Positions 295-26,584 of a DNA stretch of 64,000 nucleotides are shown piece after piece. Each line of letters opens with the position of its first letter. The stretch's first letter is position 1. The position numbers and the translations under genes are program-made. The notes under the pieces are model-generated. The model was not told where the DNA came from. It did not search any database and saw only the letters and a list, made by a program, of their open reading frames with translations. Source of the stretch: Gemmatimonadota bacterium (GTDB lineage Bacteria; Gemmatimonadota; Gemmatimonadetes; Gemmatimonadales; Gemmatimonadaceae); contig JAJPIS010000058.1 of assembly GCA_021324635.1 (NCBI GenBank), positions 62,001 through 126,000 on the forward strand, read 5' to 3'.

Positions 295-1256
295 CAGGTA
301 GGAACCACGCCGGGTCACCCAATCTCGCGCTCGCGCCCGGCCCGGAGTTCGACCTCGTGCGGGCGTTCCTGGCGCGGTGGGGGGAGAGCGCGCGGGGCGT
401 GGGCGGCGACTGCGCATCACTCGACCTACCGGACGGGGAGCGGCTCGTGGTCAGTATCGATACGAGCGTCGAAGGCGTCCACTTTCTCCGCCCCTGGCTC
501 ACGCCGCGAGAGATCGGGTACCGTGCCGCGGCAGCCGCTTGGAGTGACATTGCGGCCGTGGCCGCACGTCCGCTCGGCGCGCTCCTCGCCGTCACCGCAT
601 CCGCCGACTGGACGGCGGATCTGCCGGACGTCGCCGAGGGGATCGGTGACGCCGCCCGGGCCGTCGGTGCGCCGGTGGTCGGCGGAGACACGACCGCGGG
701 GCCGGCCCTCGTCATCACGCTCACGGTGCTCGGGAGCGCCGCGCACCCGCTCACGCGGGCAGGGGCGCGGGTGGGTGATCGTGTCTATCTGACCGGCACC
801 CTCGGCGGCCCGGCCGCCGCCGTGGGCGCCTGGCGCGCGGGTGCGTCGCCGGACGAGGCCGCGCGCGCACGCTTTGCCCACCCCACACCGCGCGTGCGTG
901 AGGCGCAGTGGCTCGCCGCGCGGGGCGCCACCGGCGCGATCGACCTGTCCGACGGCCTGCTCGCCGATGTGGGACAGCTCGCCGCGGCGAGCGGCGTGCG
1001 AGTGGTCGTCGATCTGGATCGGGTGCCGCGATGGCGCGGTCTCTCGGCGCTCGATGCGGCCGCCAGCGGGGAGGAATACGAGCTCGTCGTCACGGCACCC
1101 GTGGCCATCGACGGCGTGGCCTTCGCGCGCGAGCTCGCGCTTCCGCTGACCTACATCGGTGACGTCGTCGAGGGCGAAACCGGCGTGGACGCCCGGCTGG
1201 GCGGGCGGCGCGTTGACCCCGCGCCGGGGTACCAGCACTTTTCCGACCGTCGGTGA
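291..1256 (+). CDS. thiL: Thiamine-monophosphate kinase ThiL
   Basis: ThiL phosphorylates thiamine monophosphate to thiamine diphosphate using ATP. The 321-residue length is normal for the family. Recognisable motifs are GVGGDCASLD near the N-terminus (family consensus GDDAA, with the first Asp replaced by Gly and the second kept), DTSVEGVHF for substrate and metal binding, VVGGDTTAGP, and IDLSDGLLADV. The open frame extends upstream, but GTG 291 was chosen because the family begins shortly before the EFDLVRAFL segment and because this start overlaps the nnrD stop by 4 bases. The product feeds ThDP enzymes such as the one at 47959. Confidence 0.9.
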   Translation: MTGRNHAGSPNLALAPGPEFDLVRAFLARWGESARGVGGDCASLDLPDGERLVVSIDTSVEGVHFLRPWLTPREIGYRAAAAAWSDIAAVAARPLGALLAVTASADWTADLPDVAEGIGDAARAVGAPVVGGDTTAGPALVITLTVLGSAAHPLTRAGARVGDRVYLTGTLGGPAAAVGAWRAGASPDEAARARFAHPTPRVREAQWLAARGATGAIDLSDGLLADVGQLAAASGVRVVVDLDRVPRWRGLSALDAAASGEEYELVVTAPVAIDGVAFARELALPLTYIGDVVEGETGVDARLGGRRVDPAPGYQHFSDRR

Positions 1257-1307
1257 GCGGCGACCCGCGCCTGCATCGCCCAGCGCCGGCCGCCCCCACC
1301 GATCGAG

Positions 1308-2057
1308 ATGCGTTCGCTGCTCGTTGCCCTGACCGCCGTGTTCCTCACGCCGCCGCTGGCCACCCTCGTGGCGCTGGCGGCGCTCTTGCGTCGGCCTGAC
1401 CGTCCGGGCGGGGTATACTGGTGGGCCCCCCGGCTCTGGTCGCGCGCCATGCTCCGGGCGGCCGGGGTCCGAGTCCGCGTGCATGGTGCCGAGCGACTCG
1501 GCGACGGGCGCGACGGCCGCATCTTCGCCTCCAATCACGTGAGCTGGTACGACGTCTTCGCGCTGGCCGGCACGCTGCCGCGGTACTCGTTCGTGGCCAA
1601 GGCCGAGCTGATGCGGATCCCGGTCTTCGGCCGGGGAGCCCGGGCGGTGGGAACGATCCCGATCGAGCGCGAGAACCGGAAGTCGGCTTTCGCGAGCTAC
1701 GACGCGGCGGCGGCTCTCGTCCGTGCCGGACGTCCGGTGATTGTCTTCCCGGAGGGCACGCGTGGCCGCTCGTACGCCCTTCGGCCCTTCAAGAAGGGGC
1801 CGTTCGTGCTCGCGATCGCTGCCGGTGTGCCGGTCTACCCGGTCGTCATTCACGGCACGATGGACATCATGCCCAAAGGATCCTGGCGCGTCCGCGCCGG
1901 GACGATCGATCTGCACGTCCTCGAGCCGGTGCCCACCGCGGGCCTCACCTACGACGATCGGGACGCGCTGTCGGCGCGGGTGCATGCCTGCATGGCCGAG
2001 GTGCTCTCGCGCCGCTACGGCGTGGCGCGCGCCGAGGTGGCGCAGACCCGGGTCTAG
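1308..2057 (+). CDS. plsC: 1-acyl-sn-glycerol-3-phosphate acyltransferase
   Basis: This is a membrane-associated acyltransferase that makes phosphatidic acid from lysophosphatidic acid. The N-terminus has a hydrophobic segment (about residues 3-27) typical of PlsC. The catalytic HX4D motif is seen as NHVSWYD, the substrate motif FPEGTRGR follows about 75 residues later, and VPVYPVVIHG matches motif IV. The length of 249 residues is usual. It supplies precursor to the phospholipid genes pssA and psd in this same window. ATG 1308 follows a short 50-base gap after thiL. Confidence 0.9.
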   Translation: MRSLLVALTAVFLTPPLATLVALAALLRRPDRPGGVYWWAPRLWSRAMLRAAGVRVRVHGAERLGDGRDGRIFASNHVSWYDVFALAGTLPRYSFVAKAELMRIPVFGRGARAVGTIPIERENRKSAFASYDAAAALVRAGRPVIVFPEGTRGRSYALRPFKKGPFVLAIAAGVPVYPVVIHGTMDIMPKGSWRVRAGTIDLHVLEPVPTAGLTYDDRDALSARVHACMAEVLSRRYGVARAEVAQTRV

Positions 2058-3446
<1,389 letters not shown>

Positions 3447-3490
3447 TCGGCGAGTCGCTGGCCTCGTGACCGACCGCGCCCGGCGGTCGC

Positions 3491-3817
3491 GTGCTCGCCC
3501 CTAGGCGCATCGGGCTCGCGATCGCGGCGATCGCGGTGGCGCTGTTCGCGGTGCAGGGGGGAGAGTACGGCACGATCGACCTGCTGCGCCAGCGCACCCG
3601 GCGCGTGCGGCTCCGCGCCCAGATCGATTCGCTACAGCGGCAGGTGGACTCCCTGTCGCGACTCGTTCACGCCGTCGAGACCGACCCGGCGCTCCAGGAG
3701 CGGATCGCTCGCGAGGAGTTCGGCATGGTGCGCGGGTCCAAGGAATTGCTGTACCGCTTCGGCCCGTCCGCGCCGGCCCAGGTCCCGGCGCGCCGAGCGT
3801 CCCCGCCGCCTCACTGA
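3491..3817 (+). CDS. FtsB/DivIC-like septum formation initiator
   Basis: This 108-residue protein has one N-terminal transmembrane helix (about residues 8-24), then a coiled coil rich in Arg, Leu and Gln (about 30-65), and the LYRF-ending segment typical of the FtsB/DivIC family of divisome proteins. These proteins link early and late division factors at the membrane. A position just after eno is common for ftsB in many bacteria. The start used is GTG 3491. The last 7 bases overlap the convergent 3' end of ppdK. Confidence 0.75.
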   Translation: MLAPRRIGLAIAAIAVALFAVQGGEYGTIDLLRQRTRRVRLRAQIDSLQRQVDSLSRLVHAVETDPALQERIAREEFGMVRGSKELLYRFGPSAPAQVPARRASPPPH

Positions 3818-6492
3818 GCGAGCGCCGCCTGCGCCGCGGCGAGGCGCGCGATCGGCACCCGGTACGGCGAGCACGACACGTAGTCCAGCCCGATCCTGTG
3901 GCAGAACGCCACCGAGCGCGGCTCACCCCCATGCTCGCCGCAGATGCCGACCTTGAGCGCGGGCCGTACCCGCCGGCCAGCCTGAACGGCCATCTCGATC
4001 AGCGCCCCGACCCCGCGCTCGTCGAGAACCTGGAACGGGTCATCCGTCAGGATCCCTCGCTCGAGGTAGGTGGGGAGGAAACGACCGGCGTCGTCGCGAC
4101 TGAGCCCGAAGACCGTCTGCGTGAGGTCGTTCGTGCCGAACGAGAAGAACTCGGCTCGTTCCGCGATCTGGTCGGCCGTCACCGCCGCCCGGGGCAGCTC
4201 GATCATCGTCCCGGTCAGATAGGGCACGTGCACGCCCATCGGAGCGAGCACCTGCTCGGCCACCTCGGTGATGATCGCCTCCTGGTCCGCCAGCTCGCGA
4301 TCCATCGCCACCAGCGGGATCATGATCTCGGGTCGCACGTCGATGCCGCGCCGTGATGCGCGCACCGCCGCCTCGAAGATCGCCCGCGCCTGCATCTGCG
4401 TGATCTCGGGGTAGGTGACGCCGAGGCGGCACCCCCGGTGCCCGAGCATCGGGTTGACCTCGCGGAGACCGTCGACGATCCGCGCCAGCTCGTCCCGCGA
4501 GAGCCGCAGGGTCTCCGCCAGGTGGCGGCTCTCCTCCCCGCCGTGCGGGAGGAACTCGTGCAACGGGGGATCGAGCAGCCGGATCGTCACCGGGTAGCCG
4601 TCCATCGCCTCGAAGATCCCCTCGAAGTCGGCTCGCTGCATGGGCAGCAGCTTGGCCAGGGCCCGACGCCGGCCGGCGACATCGCGCGCCACGATCATCT
4701 CCCGCATCGCCGTGATGCGGTCCCCCTCGAAGAACATGTGCTCCGTCCGGCAGAGGCCGATGCCCTCTGCCCCGAAGCCGCGGGCGACGCGGGCGTCTCG
4801 CGGCGTATCGGCGTTCGCGCGGACCCGTAGCCGGCGGACCTCGTCCGCCCACCCGAGCACGCGCGCGAACGCCTGGTAGAGCGGTGCTTCGGCCGACCGC
4901 AGCGTGCCGCCGATGACGCGCATCACCTCGCTCGGCACGGTCGGCAGCTCGCCGCCGTATACGGCACCGCTCGCCCCGTCGACCGTGAGCCACTCGCCTT
5001 CCTGCACCGTCGTGCCGTCGACGTGGAATCGGCGGTGCGCGCCATCGATCCGCAGGTCCTTGCATCCGACGACCGCGCACTTGCCCATCCCGCGGGCGAC
5101 CACCGCGGCGTGGCTGGTCATCCCGCCGCGGGCGGTGACGACCGCCCGCGCCGCGACGATGCCATGGAAGTCCTCGGGGGTGGTCTCCTCGCGCACCAGC
5201 ACGACCGCGTCTCCGCTTCCGGCCCGGCGCTCGGCGACATCCGGGTCGAAGACGGCGATCCCGCTCGCCGCTCCGGGACTCGCCGGCAGTCCTCGGCAGA
5301 GCGGCGTCGCACGGACCGCGCTGTCGATCACCGGGTGCAGCAGTTGATCGATCTGCTGGGGCGGGACGCGCGTCACCGCCTCCCGCTCCGTGATCAATCC
5401 CTCGGCCACCATCTCGGTCGCGATCCGGAGCGCCGCCGCCGCGGTCCGCTTCCCCGTCCGCGTCTGGAGCAGATACAGCCGCCCGCGCTCGACGGTGAAC
5501 TCGAGGTCCTGCATGTCGCGGAAGTGCCGCTCCAGGCGCTGTTGGGTCTCCTCGAGCTCGGCGTACGCGCCCGGCAGGCGAGCCGCCATCTCCTCGATCG
5601 GGAGTGGCGTCCGGATGCCCGCGACCACGTCCTCACCCTGGGCATTGACGAGGAACTCGCCGTAGAAGCGCCGCTCGCCGGTCGACGGGTTCCGCGTGAA
5701 CGCGACGCCCGTCCCGGAGTCGTTGCCCAGGTTGCCGAACACCATCGCGACCACGTTGACCCCGGTTCCGAGCGTGTCCGGGATGCCGTTCACCCGCCGG
5801 TAATCCACCGCCTTCTTGAGTCGCCACGACTGCCAGACGGCGGCGATCGCGCCCCAGAGCTGCGTCACCGGATCCATCGGGAACTGCGCGCCCGTCGCCT
5901 GGCGCACCAGGCCCTTGTATTCCTCCACGAGATTGCGCAGTGCCTCCTCGTCGAGGTCGGCGTCGGTGGCCGCACCAGCCAGCAGGCGCTTGGCCGTGAG
6001 CAGGGCCTCGAAGTGATGGATCGGCACGCCGAGCACGACATCGCTGTACATCTGGAGAAACCGGCGGTACGAGTCGTACGCGAAGCGGGCATTGCCGCTC
6101 ACACTGGCGAGTCCCAACACCGTCCGGTCGTTGAGGCCGAGGTTGAGGATCGTCTCCATCATCCCCGGCATCGAGACGGGCGCGCCGGAGCGAACGGAGA
6201 CGAGGAGCGGATCGGCCGCGTCCCCGAACCGCTTGCCGGTTGCCCCCTCGAGCTCCGCCAGCGCGCGCTCGACGGCCGGTCGCACGGCCGCCGGCGGCTC
6301 TCCGTGCTCGAGGAAGTGGACGCACGCCGAGCAGGCGATGGTGAAGCCTGGGGGCACCGGCACACCGAGATTGGTCATCTCGGCCAGGTTCGCGCCCTTG
6401 CCCCCGAGCACGTCGCGCATGTCGCGCGTCCCCTCGGCCCGGCCATTGCCGAACGAGTAGACCAGACGATCGCGGGCGGGGAGAGCAGTCAT
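3811..6492 (-). CDS. ppdK: Pyruvate, phosphate dikinase
   Basis: The enzyme interconverts pyruvate, ATP and phosphate with phosphoenolpyruvate, AMP and pyrophosphate. The 893-residue length is normal. The N-terminal ATP-grasp domain begins with LGGKGANLAEM, the central phosphohistidine domain contains GGMTSHAAVVARGMGKCAVVG with the phosphorylated His, and the C-terminal PEP/pyruvate TIM barrel has FGTNDLTQ and the catalytic Cys in GICGEHGGEP. It is the last gene of the minus-strand array that begins with truA, 72 bases after purF. With enolase next door it can support reversible flux between pyruvate and PEP. Confidence 0.97.
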   Translation of the reverse strand: MTALPARDRLVYSFGNGRAEGTRDMRDVLGGKGANLAEMTNLGVPVPPGFTIACSACVHFLEHGEPPAAVRPAVERALAELEGATGKRFGDAADPLLVSVRSGAPVSMPGMMETILNLGLNDRTVLGLASVSGNARFAYDSYRRFLQMYSDVVLGVPIHHFEALLTAKRLLAGAATDADLDEEALRNLVEEYKGLVRQATGAQFPMDPVTQLWGAIAAVWQSWRLKKAVDYRRVNGIPDTLGTGVNVVAMVFGNLGNDSGTGVAFTRNPSTGERRFYGEFLVNAQGEDVVAGIRTPLPIEEMAARLPGAYAELEETQQRLERHFRDMQDLEFTVERGRLYLLQTRTGKRTAAAALRIATEMVAEGLITEREAVTRVPPQQIDQLLHPVIDSAVRATPLCRGLPASPGAASGIAVFDPDVAERRAGSGDAVVLVREETTPEDFHGIVAARAVVTARGGMTSHAAVVARGMGKCAVVGCKDLRIDGAHRRFHVDGTTVQEGEWLTVDGASGAVYGGELPTVPSEVMRVIGGTLRSAEAPLYQAFARVLGWADEVRRLRVRANADTPRDARVARGFGAEGIGLCRTEHMFFEGDRITAMREMIVARDVAGRRRALAKLLPMQRADFEGIFEAMDGYPVTIRLLDPPLHEFLPHGGEESRHLAETLRLSRDELARIVDGLREVNPMLGHRGCRLGVTYPEITQMQARAIFEAAVRASRRGIDVRPEIMIPLVAMDRELADQEAIITEVAEQVLAPMGVHVPYLTGTMIELPRAAVTADQIAERAEFFSFGTNDLTQTVFGLSRDDAGRFLPTYLERGILTDDPFQVLDERGVGALIEMAVQAGRRVRPALKVGICGEHGGEPRSVAFCHRIGLDYVSCSPYRVPIARLAAAQAALAQ

Positions 6493-22449: not shown

Positions 22450-22457
22450 GTAGCTGC
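22450..22457. repeat. Target-site duplication, left copy
   Basis: gtagctgc, identical to 25757-25764. One further base (c, at 22458 and 25765) also matches, so the flanking direct repeat can be read as 9 bp; the 8-bp reading leaves the two terminal inverted repeats perfectly symmetrical. Confidence 0.9.
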
Positions 22458-22482
22458 CGGAACTATGGACTTGGCGCACACG
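22458..22482. repeat. Left terminal inverted repeat (25 bp)
   Basis: Begins cggaactatggacttggcgc and is the exact reverse complement of 25732-25756. The transposase stop codon lies only 7 bases further in. Confidence 0.92.
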
Positions 22483-22489
22483 TCGCCTG

Positions 22490-23480
22490 TCACTTGGCCT
22501 TGCCCGTTTGCTCGCGATAGGTGAGGCGCCGGTGATCGGCAGACTGAATCGCGAGGACCGTTCGCGCGCCGTCATCCAGACCTCGCGTATTGTATTTGAA
22601 CTCAGCCTCGCTGACGTACCGGTGTAAGTGCTTCTTACTCACGACATGGTGGGTGCCGCGAATCTGCCGTTTCAGCCCTGCGAAGAAGCCCTCGATGGTG
22701 TTGGTCGTCACCTTCACGTCGGCTTCCTGACGGACGTACTCGCCGTCTTTGTGCCGCACGGTATTGTGGCTCGCGTAGGCCATTCCCAATGGGCTTGTAG
22801 GTCGGACGCTCGTCCGTCATCAAGTGGGCCGACCGGCTGACGATTTCCCGCACATGGTATGGCAGAATGTCGCCGGTGACGCGGTCGACCACCTTGCAGC
22901 GCACGTTGCCGCCCCGCTCGACGCCGGCCACGACGGGCGTCTTGCGCTTGCTGAAATCGTACGCGGGGCCTTTGGTGGCATCTCGCCCCGGAATGCGGCG
23001 GGGCCAGCCGCCAACGTAGGTCTCGTCGAACTCGACGATTCCGCCGTCCTGCCCCAATTTCTCGCGCTGTTCGTTCGCTGGGGCCATCGCCCAGCGGATG
23101 CGGTGCATCATGAACAGGGCTGACTTGTAGGTCAGTCCCGTCTCGCGTTGGATCTGCGCCGCGCTCACCCCCTTTTTGGAACTGCATGCACGATAGAACG
23201 CCAGGCACCAGTGACGCATCGGGATCGGGCTGTCCTCCATGATGGTGCCGACGCGCACGGTGTACTGTTGCTTGCAGCCCCGACAGCGCCAGAGGAACCG
23301 TGCGTTGCGCGAACCGTCCCGCGCCCTCAGAGCCACCACATCGGTATCGCCACAACGGGGGCAGTTCGGGGTATCGCCCCACCGTTGTTCCTCCATGAAG
23401 GAGACCGCAGCCGTCTCATCAGCACACGCGAGTGGAACGCGGGACTCTAGCTCTGTTCGCTTACCAGCAACCTTCGGCAT
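22490..23480 (-). pseudogene. IS1595-family transposase, disrupted by a +1 frameshift
   Basis: Starting at ATG 23480 the protein has an N-terminal zinc ribbon (CPRCGDTDVV then CRGCKQQYTVRVGT), a helix-turn-helix-like region, and the ISXO2/DDE domain with VEFDETYVGG (first Asp) and LMTDERPTYKPIG (second Asp). At minus-strand gggaatggcc (near 22782-22787) the frame breaks. The correct continuation, MAYASHNTVRHKDGEYVR through NTIEGFFAGLKRQIRG (third catalytic acid) to the stop at 22490, lies one frame over. Removing one A from that site restores KPIG-MAYASH at the spacing expected for the family. The uninterrupted product would be 281 residues and lack the last catalytic residue. A sequencing error or programmed frameshifting are alternatives. 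Confidence 0.88.
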
Positions 23481-23503
23481 AATGGCCTCGTGAGGACGAC
23501 ATT

Positions 23504-23532
23504 ATTATACTTAGCGCACTTGCGTGTGTCAA
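23504..23532 (-). promoter_or_regulatory. Consensus sigma-70 promoter of the transposase gene
   Basis: On the minus strand a perfect TTGACA (23532 to 23527) and a perfect TATAAT (23509 to 23504) are 17 bases apart. Transcription would start about 17 bases before the transposase ATG at 23480. The promoter lies inside an imperfect palindrome (23505-23538, outer arms ttatactt/aagtataa). On the opposite strand the same DNA offers a weaker pair, TTAGCG and TATAAA with 17-base spacing, facing the passenger genes. The two promoters therefore overlap and may compete. Confidence 0.65.
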
Positions 23533-23568
23533 GTATAAAATTCTGGGCGTGCGCGCAATTCCGAGAAG

Positions 23569-23615
23569 TGGTGAGCAGCGCACCGTTTGGTGAGCAGGAC
23601 TTGACTTGGTGAGCA
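23569..23615 (+). repeat. Three direct repeats tggtgagca at 19-base spacing before the passenger operon
   Basis: The 9-mer tggtgagca begins at 23569, 23588 and 23607, exactly 19 bases apart each time. The third copy ends 3 bases before ATG 23618 and supplies its GGTGAG ribosome-binding sequence. Even spacing near two helical turns is typical of operator arrays, so the XRE-type protein encoded by the second gene could bind here and regulate itself. That binding is inference. Confidence 0.5.
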
Positions 23616-23617
23616 AA

Positions 23618-24295
23618 ATGCCCGAAATTGTCGCGAACCCTTTAGGCGGACTCGGCAAAATGGCGACAGATTGGAACCCTTCGAGCGTTCACCCGGCGTT
23701 GTCGGCCAAATTCCTCACCCCGATCGCCGACCTCATCTGGAAGGTCCAGCGGAAGGTATCGAAGCACGTTCAACCCCAAGAGGGGGACGATAACTGGGTG
23801 GCCGGCTGTACCGCCTATAAGCGACGAGTCCATGCGCTGACCCAGATGAGCCTTGAGGAGGGATACCGTGATTGGCTCTGGGCCGGGCATCTGGACACCC
23901 AGTTCGGAATCAGGATTCACGGCTTCCCGATCCGTATTTATCGCTCGCTTGAGGAAGGCGGTATCCCCGAGAGATATGCGTTAGGCTCACCCGGCGAACT
24001 CAACCTCTTAGCGGATCTAAACCTGAAGTACGACGCCATCTACAGGCTGGAGGTCGTAACCAAGAAGCTCGGACGTCCGCTCGACATTCGGATCGTCGAG
24101 GTGAACGAGGGAACGGGCGACATTACGAACTCAGCGGCCATTCCGCGCTCGCGTGACGTCGATGCGCCTGTCGCGAAAGCCGACCTGTCTGTTCGCTCAA
24201 TCCGCAGAAAACCCGCAGTCGTCCTGCCCAAGCCGACGGTCAAGCCCAACGAGGAGAAGCGGGCGAATCCGAACGAGAAGGAGAAGCCGGCGTGA
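23618..24295 (+). CDS. Unrecognised passenger protein, partner of the XRE-ImmA/IrrE gene
   Basis: No family was recognised for this 225-residue protein. The central part (about residues 35-150) looks globular, with conserved-looking aromatic and charged stretches such as AYKRRVHAL, EEGYRDWLWAGHLDTQFGIRI and GFPIRIYRSLEEGGIPERYAL. The last 40 residues are Lys, Pro, Glu and Asn-rich and probably disordered. ATG 23618 is preferred because GGTGAG precedes it by 4 bases; GTG 23609 and TTG 23606 are also in frame. Its stop overlaps the next start as GTGA, so the two genes are coupled. Its A+T-richer composition matches the element. It could be the effector or substrate of the peptidase; this is speculation. 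Confidence 0.7.
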   Translation: MPEIVANPLGGLGKMATDWNPSSVHPALSAKFLTPIADLIWKVQRKVSKHVQPQEGDDNWVAGCTAYKRRVHALTQMSLEEGYRDWLWAGHLDTQFGIRIHGFPIRIYRSLEEGGIPERYALGSPGELNLLADLNLKYDAIYRLEVVTKKLGRPLDIRIVEVNEGTGDITNSAAIPRSRDVDAPVAKADLSVRSIRRKPAVVLPKPTVKPNEEKRANPNEKEKPA

Positions 24296-25398
24296 CCTTC
24301 AGTGGCGCGCGACTCCGCGTCGCACGAAGCTTCCACGGCCTAACCCAACGCGAGCTGGCGGATAAGGTAAGTGTGGCCAATAGCCTCATTGCTGCGTTCG
24401 AAAACGGAGTGAAACAGCCCAGCGATGAGATTCGTGAGGCGCTTTGCGCCACCCTCAGGGTGGAAGAGCCCTACTTCGATGTGGCGCACACGGATGAATT
24501 TCAGGAGGCCGAGTCGAATTTTCGAAGACGGATCACGGCGTCGGGAAAGACGAAGCGGCAGGTGCTGGCGCGCGCTACGATGTTCGGCATGGTCATAGAC
24601 CGGCTCCGAACTTTCGGAGAGTTTCCGCCGTTCAATTTCCCAAGTTTCCCGGCGAAAACCCTGGGTGATGTCGAAGGCATCGCTGAGAGGTGCCGTTACC
24701 ATTGGGGGCTGGGAATTGACGCCCCGATTGGTGACGTGGCGAGCGTTGCCGAGAATGCCGGCGCTGTCATCCTCAACGTCGATATTGGCACGGCCGAAAA
24801 GGTCGACGCGTTCTCGCGTTTCGGCCAGAACAGCGTAATTGTCCTGAATACGGAAAAGGACAGCCCGTCGCGGACGCTGTTTAGCCTGGCGCATGAGATC
24901 GGGCACGGGGTGTTACACCAACACGCTAGTGCCCGGTCCATGCCGCTCGATCTGAAAGAGACCGAGGCCGACTACTTCGCAGGAGCGTTCCTGCTCCCAC
25001 GGGACGCATTCGCCGCTGACTTTTTGGCGAATCGCGCGCTCGACTGGGAAGGGCTGCTGGACATGAAGCGTTACTGGCGGGTGAGCCTTCAGGCCATGCT
25101 TCACCGCGCCCATCAGCTCCGGCTCATCGACGCTGCCGAGTACCGGCTGCGGTTCAAGAAGCTCAGTGTTTGGGGTTGGCGAAAAGAGGAGCCAGAGGAA
25201 CCGGCGCCAGAGCAACCCGTTCTGTTTGGTGAGGCGATGCAACGCGCCTACGCTGACTACCGTAAGAGGCCCGCGGACTTGGCGAAGGAACTGGGCTGGA
25301 CACGGGACATTTTCGAATCCACGACCGGGGTGCTCATACCAGACGGAGGCGACACAAAGCTTTCACTCGTTGGGCGCAGGCCGCTCAGGATCAGCTAA
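24292..25398 (+). CDS. XRE-family HTH fused to ImmA/IrrE (M78) metallopeptidase
   Basis: The 368-residue protein starts with an XRE-type helix-turn-helix (about residues 6-58: LRVARSFHGLTQRELADK, then IAAFENGVKQPS). After a linker comes an ImmA/IrrE-type domain with the zinc-binding HEIGH (His201, Glu202, His205) and the downstream acidic ligand in KETEADYFAGAFLLP. ImmA-type peptidases are known to cleave repressors in mobile elements, and IrrE-type ones to cleave DdrO-type repressors after DNA damage; here the DNA-binding and protease modules are in one chain. The 90-residue C-terminal tail is unassigned. The GTG start overlaps the preceding stop. It may regulate or process its coupled partner. 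Confidence 0.9.
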   Translation: MTFSGARLRVARSFHGLTQRELADKVSVANSLIAAFENGVKQPSDEIREALCATLRVEEPYFDVAHTDEFQEAESNFRRRITASGKTKRQVLARATMFGMVIDRLRTFGEFPPFNFPSFPAKTLGDVEGIAERCRYHWGLGIDAPIGDVASVAENAGAVILNVDIGTAEKVDAFSRFGQNSVIVLNTEKDSPSRTLFSLAHEIGHGVLHQHASARSMPLDLKETEADYFAGAFLLPRDAFAADFLANRALDWEGLLDMKRYWRVSLQAMLHRAHQLRLIDAAEYRLRFKKLSVWGWRKEEPEEPAPEQPVLFGEAMQRAYADYRKRPADLAKELGWTRDIFESTTGVLIPDGGDTKLSLVGRRPLRIS

Positions 25399-25431
25399 AA
25401 GAAAAAAGCCCAACGTCGTGAGACGTCGGGC
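25397..25431 (-). terminator. Minus-strand intrinsic terminator between the ImmA gene and the tRNA
   Basis: Arms 25408-25417 and 25422-25431 pair over 9 of 10 positions around a 4-base loop. On the minus strand the hairpin is followed by TTTTTTCTTTT, a good terminator for transcripts coming from the trpC side. On the plus strand it has no U-run, so passenger-operon transcripts can read through into the tRNA, the small ORF and trpC. Confidence 0.7.
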
Positions 25432-25517
25432 GCGGTCGTGGCGGAACTGGTAGACGCGATAGACCTGGAATCTATTTCGCTGGCAGGCGAGTGCGGGTTC
25501 GAATCCCGCCGACCGCA
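25432..25517 (+). tRNA. Class II tRNA with leucine-type body, anticodon UGG, C at position 33
   Basis: All arms form: acceptor gcggtcg/cgaccgc (7 pairs), a D-arm gcggaactggtagacgc of the kind seen in bacterial tRNA-Leu, an anticodon stem ataga/tctat, a long variable arm (25476-25491) and a T-arm gcggg-ttcgaat-cccgc, with discriminator A and no encoded CCA. The 7-base anticodon loop reads ccuggaa, giving anticodon UGG (proline CCA codon) at 25466-25468 and C instead of the near-invariant U33. The body argues for leucine charging, the anticodon for proline decoding. It may be a non-decoding, mischarging or decayed tRNA. It lies inside the mobile element. Confidence 0.8.
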
Positions 25518-25546
25518 AATGACTCGAACCCTCGGAAATATACCTC

Positions 25547-25681
25547 ATGGGTAAGAAAAAGGTCACGTCCAAACGGAAGTCAGGGCCAAAGCCGGAAACG
25601 CTCAAAGTCGCCGGTAACTGGCGCGAAGCCGTCAAGACAGCAATGAGGCGCGGCAAGCCGCCTCGCTCGACGGCCAAGTAG
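25547..25681 (+). CDS. 44-residue basic small protein
   Basis: The ORF begins MGKKKVTSKRKSGPKPE and continues with TLKVAGNWREAVKTAMRRG, a short amphipathic helix, then a basic Pro-rich end. About a third of residues are Lys or Arg. It sits between the tRNA and the right end of the element. A weak ribosome-binding GGA lies 10 bases before ATG 25547. The helix plus basic tail suggests nucleic-acid binding, but no family is named here. It was judged real on its non-random, charged composition and single-helix pattern; coding status is moderate. Confidence 0.5.
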   Translation: MGKKKVTSKRKSGPKPETLKVAGNWREAVKTAMRRGKPPRSTAK

Positions 25682-25731
25682 CCCGCTCAATGCAGCGCCA
25701 TGCATAACGCAGATCCGCCGGAGCGGGGCGG

Positions 25732-25756
25732 CGTGTGCGCCAAGTCCATAGTTCCG
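25732..25756. repeat. Right terminal inverted repeat (25 bp)
   Basis: Exact reverse complement of 22458-22482, ending in ccatagttccg. It is read in frame at the start of the present trpC ORF. Confidence 0.92.
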
Positions 25757-26584
25757 GTAGCTGCCCGCTGGAGGCCGCCGACCGGTACCCTTGCCGCGCT
25801 GTTGACGGCGGCGCGCGCGCGGGCCGCCGAGCTGCGGGTGCGCCGTCTGGCACTGGAAGCGGCGGTCGCCGCGGCCGGACGGCCCCCATCCTTTGCGGAG
25901 GCCCTCCGGCGGTCCGACGTCGCGATCATCGCCGAGGTGAAACGGCGGTCGCCATCAAAGGGTGACATCAACCCCGGGCTCCGCGCCGACGATCGGGCGG
26001 CCGCCTACGCGGCCGGCGGCGCGGCGGCCATTTCGGTGCTGACGGAGCCGGCGCGCTTCGGTGGGACCGCCGACGACTTGCGCGCAGTCGCCGCGCGGGT
26101 CGCGGTCCCGGTCCTTCGAAAGGACTTCATCGTCGACCCGCTTCAGCTCGTGGAGGCGCGCAGCCTCGGAGCCGCCGCGGCCCTGCTCATTGCCCGGGCG
26201 CTCGAGCCCGCGCTGCTCGCCGAGATGGTGGCGGCGGCCCGGGGGCTCGTGCTCGAGCCGCTGGTGGAGGTGCGCGACGCCGGCGAGTTGGACCGCGCGC
26301 TCGCGGCCGGGGCGTCGGTGATCGGCGTCAACAACCGCGACCTGGAGACGCTCGTGATCGACGACGCCGTCGCGACCCGCCTCATCCCGCTCGTCCCGCC
26401 CGACGTCGTGGCGATCGCGGAAAGCGGCATGTCGATCCGCGCCGACGTCGAGGCGGCCGCGGTCGCCGGCGCGGACGCGGTGCTGGTCGGATCCGCGCTG
26501 TCGGCCACCGGGGACCCGACGGCTGCCGTCGGGGCACTCGCCGGCGTGCCGCGCCGACGCCGGGTCGACCCAGCACTCCGATGA
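25733..26584 (+). CDS. trpC: Indole-3-glycerol phosphate synthase with an element-derived start
   Basis: TrpC closes the indole ring from CdRP in tryptophan synthesis. The barrel motifs are intact: IAEVKRRSPSKGDI, VLTEPARFGG, VLRKDFIVDP, LEPLVEVRD, IGVNNRDLETL and AIAESGMS. The recognisable protein starts at TGTLAALL, about 17 codons in, and everything before codon 9 is mobile-element DNA. GTG 25733 is chosen because GGAGCGGGG lies 9 bases upstream; ATG 25700 is in frame but lacks such a site. Joining the chromosomal flanks at the target duplication would give a native GTG start at 22444 (MQVAARWRPPTGTL). The stop overlaps trpF by 4 bases. Confidence 0.9.
   Translation: MCAKSIVPVAARWRPPTGTLAALLTAARARAAELRVRRLALEAAVAAAGRPPSFAEALRRSDVAIIAEVKRRSPSKGDINPGLRADDRAAAYAAGGAAAISVLTEPARFGGTADDLRAVAARVAVPVLRKDFIVDPLQLVEARSLGAAAALLIARALEPALLAEMVAAARGLVLEPLVEVRDAGELDRALAAGASVIGVNNRDLETLVIDDAVATRLIPLVPPDVVAIAESGMSIRADVEAAAVAGADAVLVGSALSATGDPTAAVGALAGVPRRRRVDPALR
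25757..25764. repeat. Target-site duplication, right copy
   Basis: gtagctgc, identical to 22450-22457. It belongs to the original trpC 5' end. Confidence 0.9.

Follow-up and report, generated by a model that had tools for sequence, protein, structure and literature searches.

An IS1595-family transposon in the window, that is, in the whole 64,000-nucleotide stretch of DNA analysed, carries an intact class-II tRNA gene that joins a leucine-type body to the proline anticodon UGG. Related elements from several phyla carry class-II tRNAs whose anticodon is likewise wrong for the body, and the anticodon is associated with specially placed matching codons in the transposase gene of the same element. 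From these comparisons it is proposed, with a probability of roughly 0.55, that a self-encoded leucine tRNA would recode chosen codons of the element's own transposase.

The tRNA-bearing transposon of the window

IS1595-family elements encode ISXO2-like transposases, and some members carry passenger genes. The window element belongs to the family by its ISXO2-like DDE and zinc-ribbon domains (Pfam PF12762, 2.3e-11; PF12760, 1.7e-10), its terminal inverted repeats and its 8-bp target duplication; it and its kin differ in carrying a recurrent passenger tRNA whose anticodon is tied to codons of the transposase. The inverted repeats (36 nt, 94% complementary), trimmed to the ends CGGAACTATGG and CCATAGTTCCG, delimit an element of 3299 bp, and the 8-bp duplication outside these ends is perfect. 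In two congeneric genomes the lexA-trpC junction lacks the element, the GC content of which is about 0.60 as compared with 0.71. An earlier note on this DNA had assigned the tRNA to a mobile element, and the gene is now placed exactly, in the transposon at 22458-25756, with the following features.

22450..22457, unstranded: left copy of the 8-bp target duplication GTAGCTGC
22458..25756, unstranded: whole IS1595-family transposon, 3299 bp, between lexA and trpC (repeats, duplication, empty sites in congeners)
22458..22487, plus strand: left terminal inverted repeat, starting CGGAACTATGGACTTGGCGCACACG (36-nt arms, 94% complementary)
22490..23480, minus strand: IS1595-family transposase gene (zinc ribbon and DDE, by Pfam), with a one-base frameshift near 22780
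23079..23081, minus strand: CCA at site S2 of the transposase (RWAMA[P]AN)
23433..23435, minus strand: CCA at site S1 of the transposase (SRV[P]LAC)
23606..24295, plus strand: RosmerTA toxin, RmrT-like, with TTG as the listed start (PADLOC RmrT, 3.6e-10)
24292..25398, plus strand: RmrA antitoxin, HTH and ImmA/IrrE metallopeptidase (PADLOC RmrA, 4.1e-70; PF06114, 1e-17)
25408..25431, unstranded: hairpin touching the 5' end of the tRNA, with an A-run on the 5' side of the hairpin (sequence)
25432..25517, plus strand: class-II leucine-type tRNA with anticodon UGG, C33, A37 and A73 (sequence, ARAGORN, Rfam, family covariation)
25466..25468, plus strand: anticodon TGG, C33 being position 25465 (sequence, ARAGORN)
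25547..25681, plus strand: small ORF MGKKKVTSKRKSGPKPETLKVAGNWREAVKTAMRRGKPPRSTAK, 44 aa, with a GPKPE motif (GPKPE..LK..G.W..AV), recurring in related elements
25727..25756, minus strand: right terminal inverted repeat
25757..25764, unstranded: right copy of the 8-bp target duplication GTAGCTGC

The transposase gene of the window lies in two frames, whereas most homologues are intact; this bears on activity and not on family membership, and the window copy may therefore be dead. A programmed frameshift served by the tRNA was considered here and rejected, since a single extra base is the best reading of the shift and most relatives are unshifted at that place.

The adjoining toxin and antitoxin genes (23606-25398) resemble RosmerTA, the RmrT/RmrA anti-phage toxin-antitoxin system, of which the pair in Gordonia phage Kita is reported to be membrane-depolarising (PMC10440598). 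RosmerTA is not common to all tRNA-bearing elements, however, and explains the passengers rather than the tRNA; it was ruled out as a required partner because passengers vary between elements (AlbA-like, RosmerTA and others) while the tRNA stays. Elsewhere in the phylum, two more RosmerTA-like pairs had no tRNA within the stretch fetched. A SocA/Panacea-domain gene (L125 6758-7375; PF13274, 3.4e-18) is also found in the second RosmerTA/tRNA element.

The hairpin at 25408-25431 may serve as a terminator of minus-strand transcripts or in processing. A GC-rich hairpin stands immediately 5' of the tRNA in the window, L125, L008 and L015, and that of L125 is very similar to the window's. The window copy of the small ORF at 25547-25681 has no Pfam match; a small protein with GPKPE..LKI.G.W..AV..AL..GKP recurs there and in L125 (7804-7935), L038, L144, L152, L165, L329, L423 and L424.

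The tRNA gene

A single tRNA was called in the window by ARAGORN, at 25432-25517 on the plus strand with anticodon TGG. It matches the Rfam tRNA family RF00005 over its full length at 58.2 bits (gathering threshold 29; E 5.6e-10), with all cloverleaf arms present and no broken pairs, as expected from the earlier note, which had described an intact class-II tRNA with fully paired stems. The gene is 86 nt long and has G1-C72, a 7-bp acceptor stem (GCGGTCG/CGACCGC), a 5-bp anticodon stem (ATAGA/TCTAT), a 5-bp T stem, a long variable arm and A at position 73; the CCA end is not encoded. Its loop, CCTGGAA, reads C32, C33, U34-G35-G36, A37, A38, and the proline anticodon with C33 that had been remarked upon is thus upheld.

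The gene has the class-II body, A73 and leucine-type D arm of a tRNA-Leu but, with UGG, not an anticodon for a leucine codon. It lacks the class-I body of about 74–77 nt, the C1-G72 pair and the G37 of a tRNA-Pro; the host tRNA-Pro(UGG) is 74 nt long with C1 and G37. Identity is 71–72% to four of the five host tRNA-Leu genes and 65% to the fifth, as against 63% to the host tRNA-Pro(UGG), which agrees with the leucine-like body that had been claimed. The host sets themselves are ordinary (Leu: TAA, CAA, TAG, CAG, GAG; Pro: GGG, TGG, CGG), and the closest sequence is the tRNA of a second transposon, from another genus, at 90% identity. Judged from its sequence, the most likely activity of the window tRNA would be the insertion of leucine at CCA codons.

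A family of tRNA-bearing IS1595 elements

A first search of genome and viral contigs combined a leucine-type D arm with a preselected TGG anticodon. It returned complete class-II tRNAs, with an IS1595 transposase close by at five loci, and repeats delimit each of these five elements. Several matches fell on viral contigs, yet L036, L038 and L052 (viral) as well as L008 and L015 (genomes) adjoin an IS1595 transposase, and a phage tRNA was rejected as the explanation. As the pattern had fixed TGG, IS1595 transposase loci were then fetched regardless of tRNAs. Among 80 such loci from IMG/VR, the class-II tRNAs in or beside elements had the anticodons UGG (9), UGC (2) and AGG (1), and no anticodon for Leu or Ser was among them; where ordinary tRNAs occur, they are located outside the repeats. 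Terminal repeats were sought at L153, L158 and L165 and not recovered. Searching the window's phylum and two other phyla brought further UGG elements as well as two with UGC, one with UUA and one with CUA.

Altogether, 31 further IS1595-type elements from several phyla carry a class-II tRNA with an anticodon wrong for its body: UGG in 23 (24 with the window element), UGC in 4, AGG in 2, UUA in 1 and CUA in 1. The loop of the window tRNA was sought in other copies, as had been suggested; UGG is kept, C33 is shared by no fewer than five other UGG copies (L125, L036/L157, L165, L294 and L424), and no normal Leu or Ser loop was found. A one-off local mutation of a tRNA-Leu is thereby ruled out. 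In L125, from another genus of the same family, the layout is transposase, toxin, RmrA, hairpin, tRNA and small ORF, again with C33. Across the family the fold is maintained by covariation, with 97.3% of cells paired (37–45% in slid controls) and 23 of 25 pairs changed on both sides.

In a tree of the transposases, tRNA-bearing and tRNA-less elements are interleaved and anticodons switch between relatives; the labels change 17 times, compared with at least 26 for shuffled labels, a sign that inheritance accounts for part of the distribution of the trait, and gain or loss for the rest. A viral scan for the toxin, a tblastn search of plasmids with the toxin and, for the tRNA, a DNA similarity search of plasmids and phages returned either no match or ordinary tRNA-Leu. 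A 23-base pattern gave mostly chance matches in the phylum, and among 29 fetched loci scanned a tRNA was found only in L086.

Other unusual tRNA genes were seen along the way. Class-II UGG tRNAs with no recognised IS1595 transposase nearby occur at L018 5483-5569, L019 863-949, L027 4863-4949 and L059 11930-12012, those of L018 and L019 being identical copies in one Prevotella genome. The IS1595 element of L422 has two tandem tRNA-like genes (5224-5294 and 5298-5382), a class-II UUA tRNA and a short tRNA-like sequence. Odd tRNA genes of about 72–75 nt without a long variable arm lie in or near the IS1595 elements of L345 (1491-1563), L336 (2871-2945), L356 (1134-1205), L437 (3797-3870) and L170 (6125-6199), with ARAGORN anticodons TGA, GTC, CGC, GCA and GGA, respectively.

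Codons of the transposase match the anticodon of the tRNA

In elements with a UGG tRNA, CCA is concentrated at four columns of the transposase: one at S1, near the N-terminus ([IVL]P.AC), two in S2, after HRIR.AM, and one at S3, two residues past [KR]RL.Y. At these columns, most of which were defined by exploration on a first set and reappeared in elements that were fetched or recognised subsequently, UGG elements use CCA in 14/14, 9/11, 8/9 and 7/9 cases (38/43 in total), as compared with 4/8, 1/10, 2/17 and 1/19 in other elements with proline there (p = 0.0096, 0.0016, 0.00023 and 0.00022). The elements fetched later include L326, L327, L328, L329, L421, L423 and L424, all with CCA at S1, and in L150 the CCA sites were noticed first and the UGG tRNA afterwards. 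UGG elements avoid CCA at another 13 shared proline columns (9/133), as would be expected at structural prolines if the element's tRNA misreads this codon; three further proline columns, with small counts, show intermediate use.

When proline codons were shuffled within UGG elements, the clustering of CCA in shared columns stood out at z 6.8 (0/1000 shuffles). CCA is the most strongly clustering of all codons in this group, and its z in tRNA-less elements is -1.1. Four-fold codons neighbouring the CCA sites have ordinary third bases (A in about 11%), which argues against an overlapping DNA motif as the cause of the conserved CCA and led to the rejection of that explanation. In UGC elements, GCA occupies one conserved alanine (FW[RK]A.SSKKG) in 4/4 cases as compared with 3/20 elsewhere (p = 0.0033, the lowest value among the 12 columns tested). 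There is, then, an association between the anticodon and matching codons at special places in the transposase gene of the same element. Counter-cases exist: CCA also stands at S1 in four elements without a tRNA, and L165, L333 and L294 carry UGG with no CCA at the four sites, L165 and L294 being partial.

Amber and ochre variants and the 3' end of the transposase

The element of L434 (repeats 1220-4991) carries, inside its repeats, a leucine-type tRNA with anticodon CUA (2803-2884). In its transposase the codon at S3 is TAG, and the same frame continues beyond it with IERNKTWKAIKAQAAAELAERRGKRRIRNRP; at the equivalent place in L199 it is the +1 frame that encodes LIERNKVWKAINAAARAERDRRRAQW. 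The protein sequence IERNKTWKAIKAQAAAELAERR after the TAG is homologous to the +1-frame tail L-IERNKVWKAINAAARAERDRR of L199 (score 75, 0/2000 shuffles), and the TAG aligns with the leucine of that tail. Most members of the L434 clade in the transposase tree seem to gain a tail of this kind through a +1 frameshift. Although the TAG could be a plain stop, this one element provides the clearest single hint that an element's tRNA may give leucine to its own transposase. In the single ochre (UUA) element, L422, no convincing in-frame TAA was found in the transposase.

A candidate programmed +1 frameshift at the 3' end of IS1595 transposases was observed in L168, L169, L170, L173, L181, L199, L244, L436 and about 30 more. 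After [KR]RL.Y comes, in nearly every case, an NCT or NTT codon. The 0 frame stops within about 8 codons, and the +1 frame runs on as a basic tail, often L[TV]KP...K(Q)KARRF.RW.

Possible roles of the element-borne tRNA

Bacterial LeuRS is not known to depend on the anticodon, and leucylation of the window tRNA is predicted from its body, A73 and D arm. In the proposed mechanism, a leucine-type tRNA with a changed anticodon would read the matching codon (mostly CCA; in variants, GCA or the stop TAG) at a small number of fixed sites in the transposase gene of its own element. Leucine, expected on account of the leucine-type body, would be inserted there, and the transposase product would come to depend on the private tRNA, with recoding that may complete or tune transposase activity. 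In the window, tRNA-Leu(UGG) would compete with the host tRNA-Pro(UGG) at the two CCA codons of S1 and S2, probably at a low level since C33 would weaken decoding, and the effect of leucine at these sites could be regulatory, tolerant or inhibitory. A more general form of this reading is tentative and falls somewhat short of an even chance: that IS1595 elements have made a private change to the code, in which an element's own tRNA-Leu, its anticodon switched to UGG, UGC, AGG or the stop-reading CUA or UUA, gives a new meaning to selected sense or stop codons in the transposase gene, anticodon and codon co-evolving so that transposition is tied to its own decoder.

The residues found in homologues bear on what leucine would do. 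At S1 and S2 homologues have Pro, Ser, Thr, Asp or Glu, and leucine fits them only at S3 and at the amber TAG; in a likelihood test over all CCA sites Pro ranked first and Leu far down, so a simple reassignment of CCA to leucine at leucine-conserved positions is unsupported. The foremost alternative, conceivable if unlikely, is that the tRNA misreads CCA as leucine but thereby acts as a poison or as a brake on copy number: a transposase containing leucine would be inactive or dominant negative, and transposition would fall as copies and tRNA accumulate. The retention of Pro, Ser or Thr rather than Leu at S1 and S2 in tRNA-less relatives would suit such a brake, as would the restriction of CCA to few sites. 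S3, however, is a leucine encoded directly in many relatives, and the TAG variant would gain a homologous tail by readthrough, which resembles completion and not poisoning.

The top rank of Pro in the same test, together with an anticodon that fits CCA and the low share of this codon (about 5% of Pro codons in nine host genes of the window), would equally suit a proline-charged tRNA, ProRS reading G35 and G36, that helps to translate a codon rare in GC-rich hosts. This ordinary supply role is nevertheless rather improbable, given the leucine-type body, A37 where G37 is usual, the avoidance of CCA at conserved proline positions and the existence of UGC, UUA and CUA versions; swapping CCA for CCG would also be simpler.

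The earlier note had left a choice between leucine insertion at CCA and a decoy or regulatory RNA. A function outside decoding, for instance as bait for tRNA-cutting toxins or as a toxin-antitoxin partner, would accord with RosmerTA in the window and L125 elements, with a C33 unfavourable to decoding, and with the link to transposons or toxin-antitoxin systems that a review suspects for untranslatable allo-tRNAs (PMC7609411). Such a function is improbable: passengers differ between elements while the tRNA stays, the amber variant points to decoding, and the match between the window tRNA's anticodon and conserved codons of the adjoining transposase favours a decoding role over a decoy. That a functionless tRNA gene was captured and carried by chance, as a few degenerate copies might suggest (e.g., L329, 70 nt, 22 bits), is very improbable in view of a fold conserved with compensatory changes, wrong anticodons that are kept, recurrence in several phyla, the codon shuffles and the four-column codon test.

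Relation to known systems and significance

Phages with reassigned stop codons carry suppressor tRNAs that decode their own genes. The recoding by a self-encoded leucine tRNA proposed here is alike in that a mobile element brings a tRNA for codons of its own genes, and the CUA element of L434 would act in the same way; it differs in that the carrier is a transposon and the codon mostly the sense codon CCA, at few fixed positions of one gene and not genome wide. Self-encoded suppressor tRNAs of phages are thus the nearest principle, and sense-codon recoding at selected sites by a transposon would be a considerable step beyond it. In the open literature, subscription papers being outside the scope of the search, no match was found for a tRNA as passenger or recoder of an insertion sequence.

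Allo-tRNAs are also class-II tRNAs and occur with many anticodons; as outlined in a review, they are serine-type with 12-bp 8/4 or 9/3 branches (Mukai et al., 2017, via PMC7609411), and one group (UAU) is suspected of a link to transposons or toxin-antitoxin systems (PMC7609411). So far as that outline describes them, the window tRNA shares their long variable arm and an anticodon unrelated to the body but, with a 7-bp acceptor stem, a 5-bp T stem, A73 and a leucine-type body, has neither the 8/4 or 9/3 structure nor serine identity.

If the proposed recoding is true, small transposons would use sense-codon recoding, beyond frameshifting and stop readthrough, and would bring the necessary tRNA themselves. 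Annotation pipelines would then be mislabelling such genes as tRNA-Pro or tRNA-Ala and misreading the transposases, and genetic-code engineering could draw on the family for leucine tRNAs bearing foreign anticodons. Such recoding would moreover represent a new layer of transposition control and a natural case of codon-anticodon co-evolution within one mobile element.
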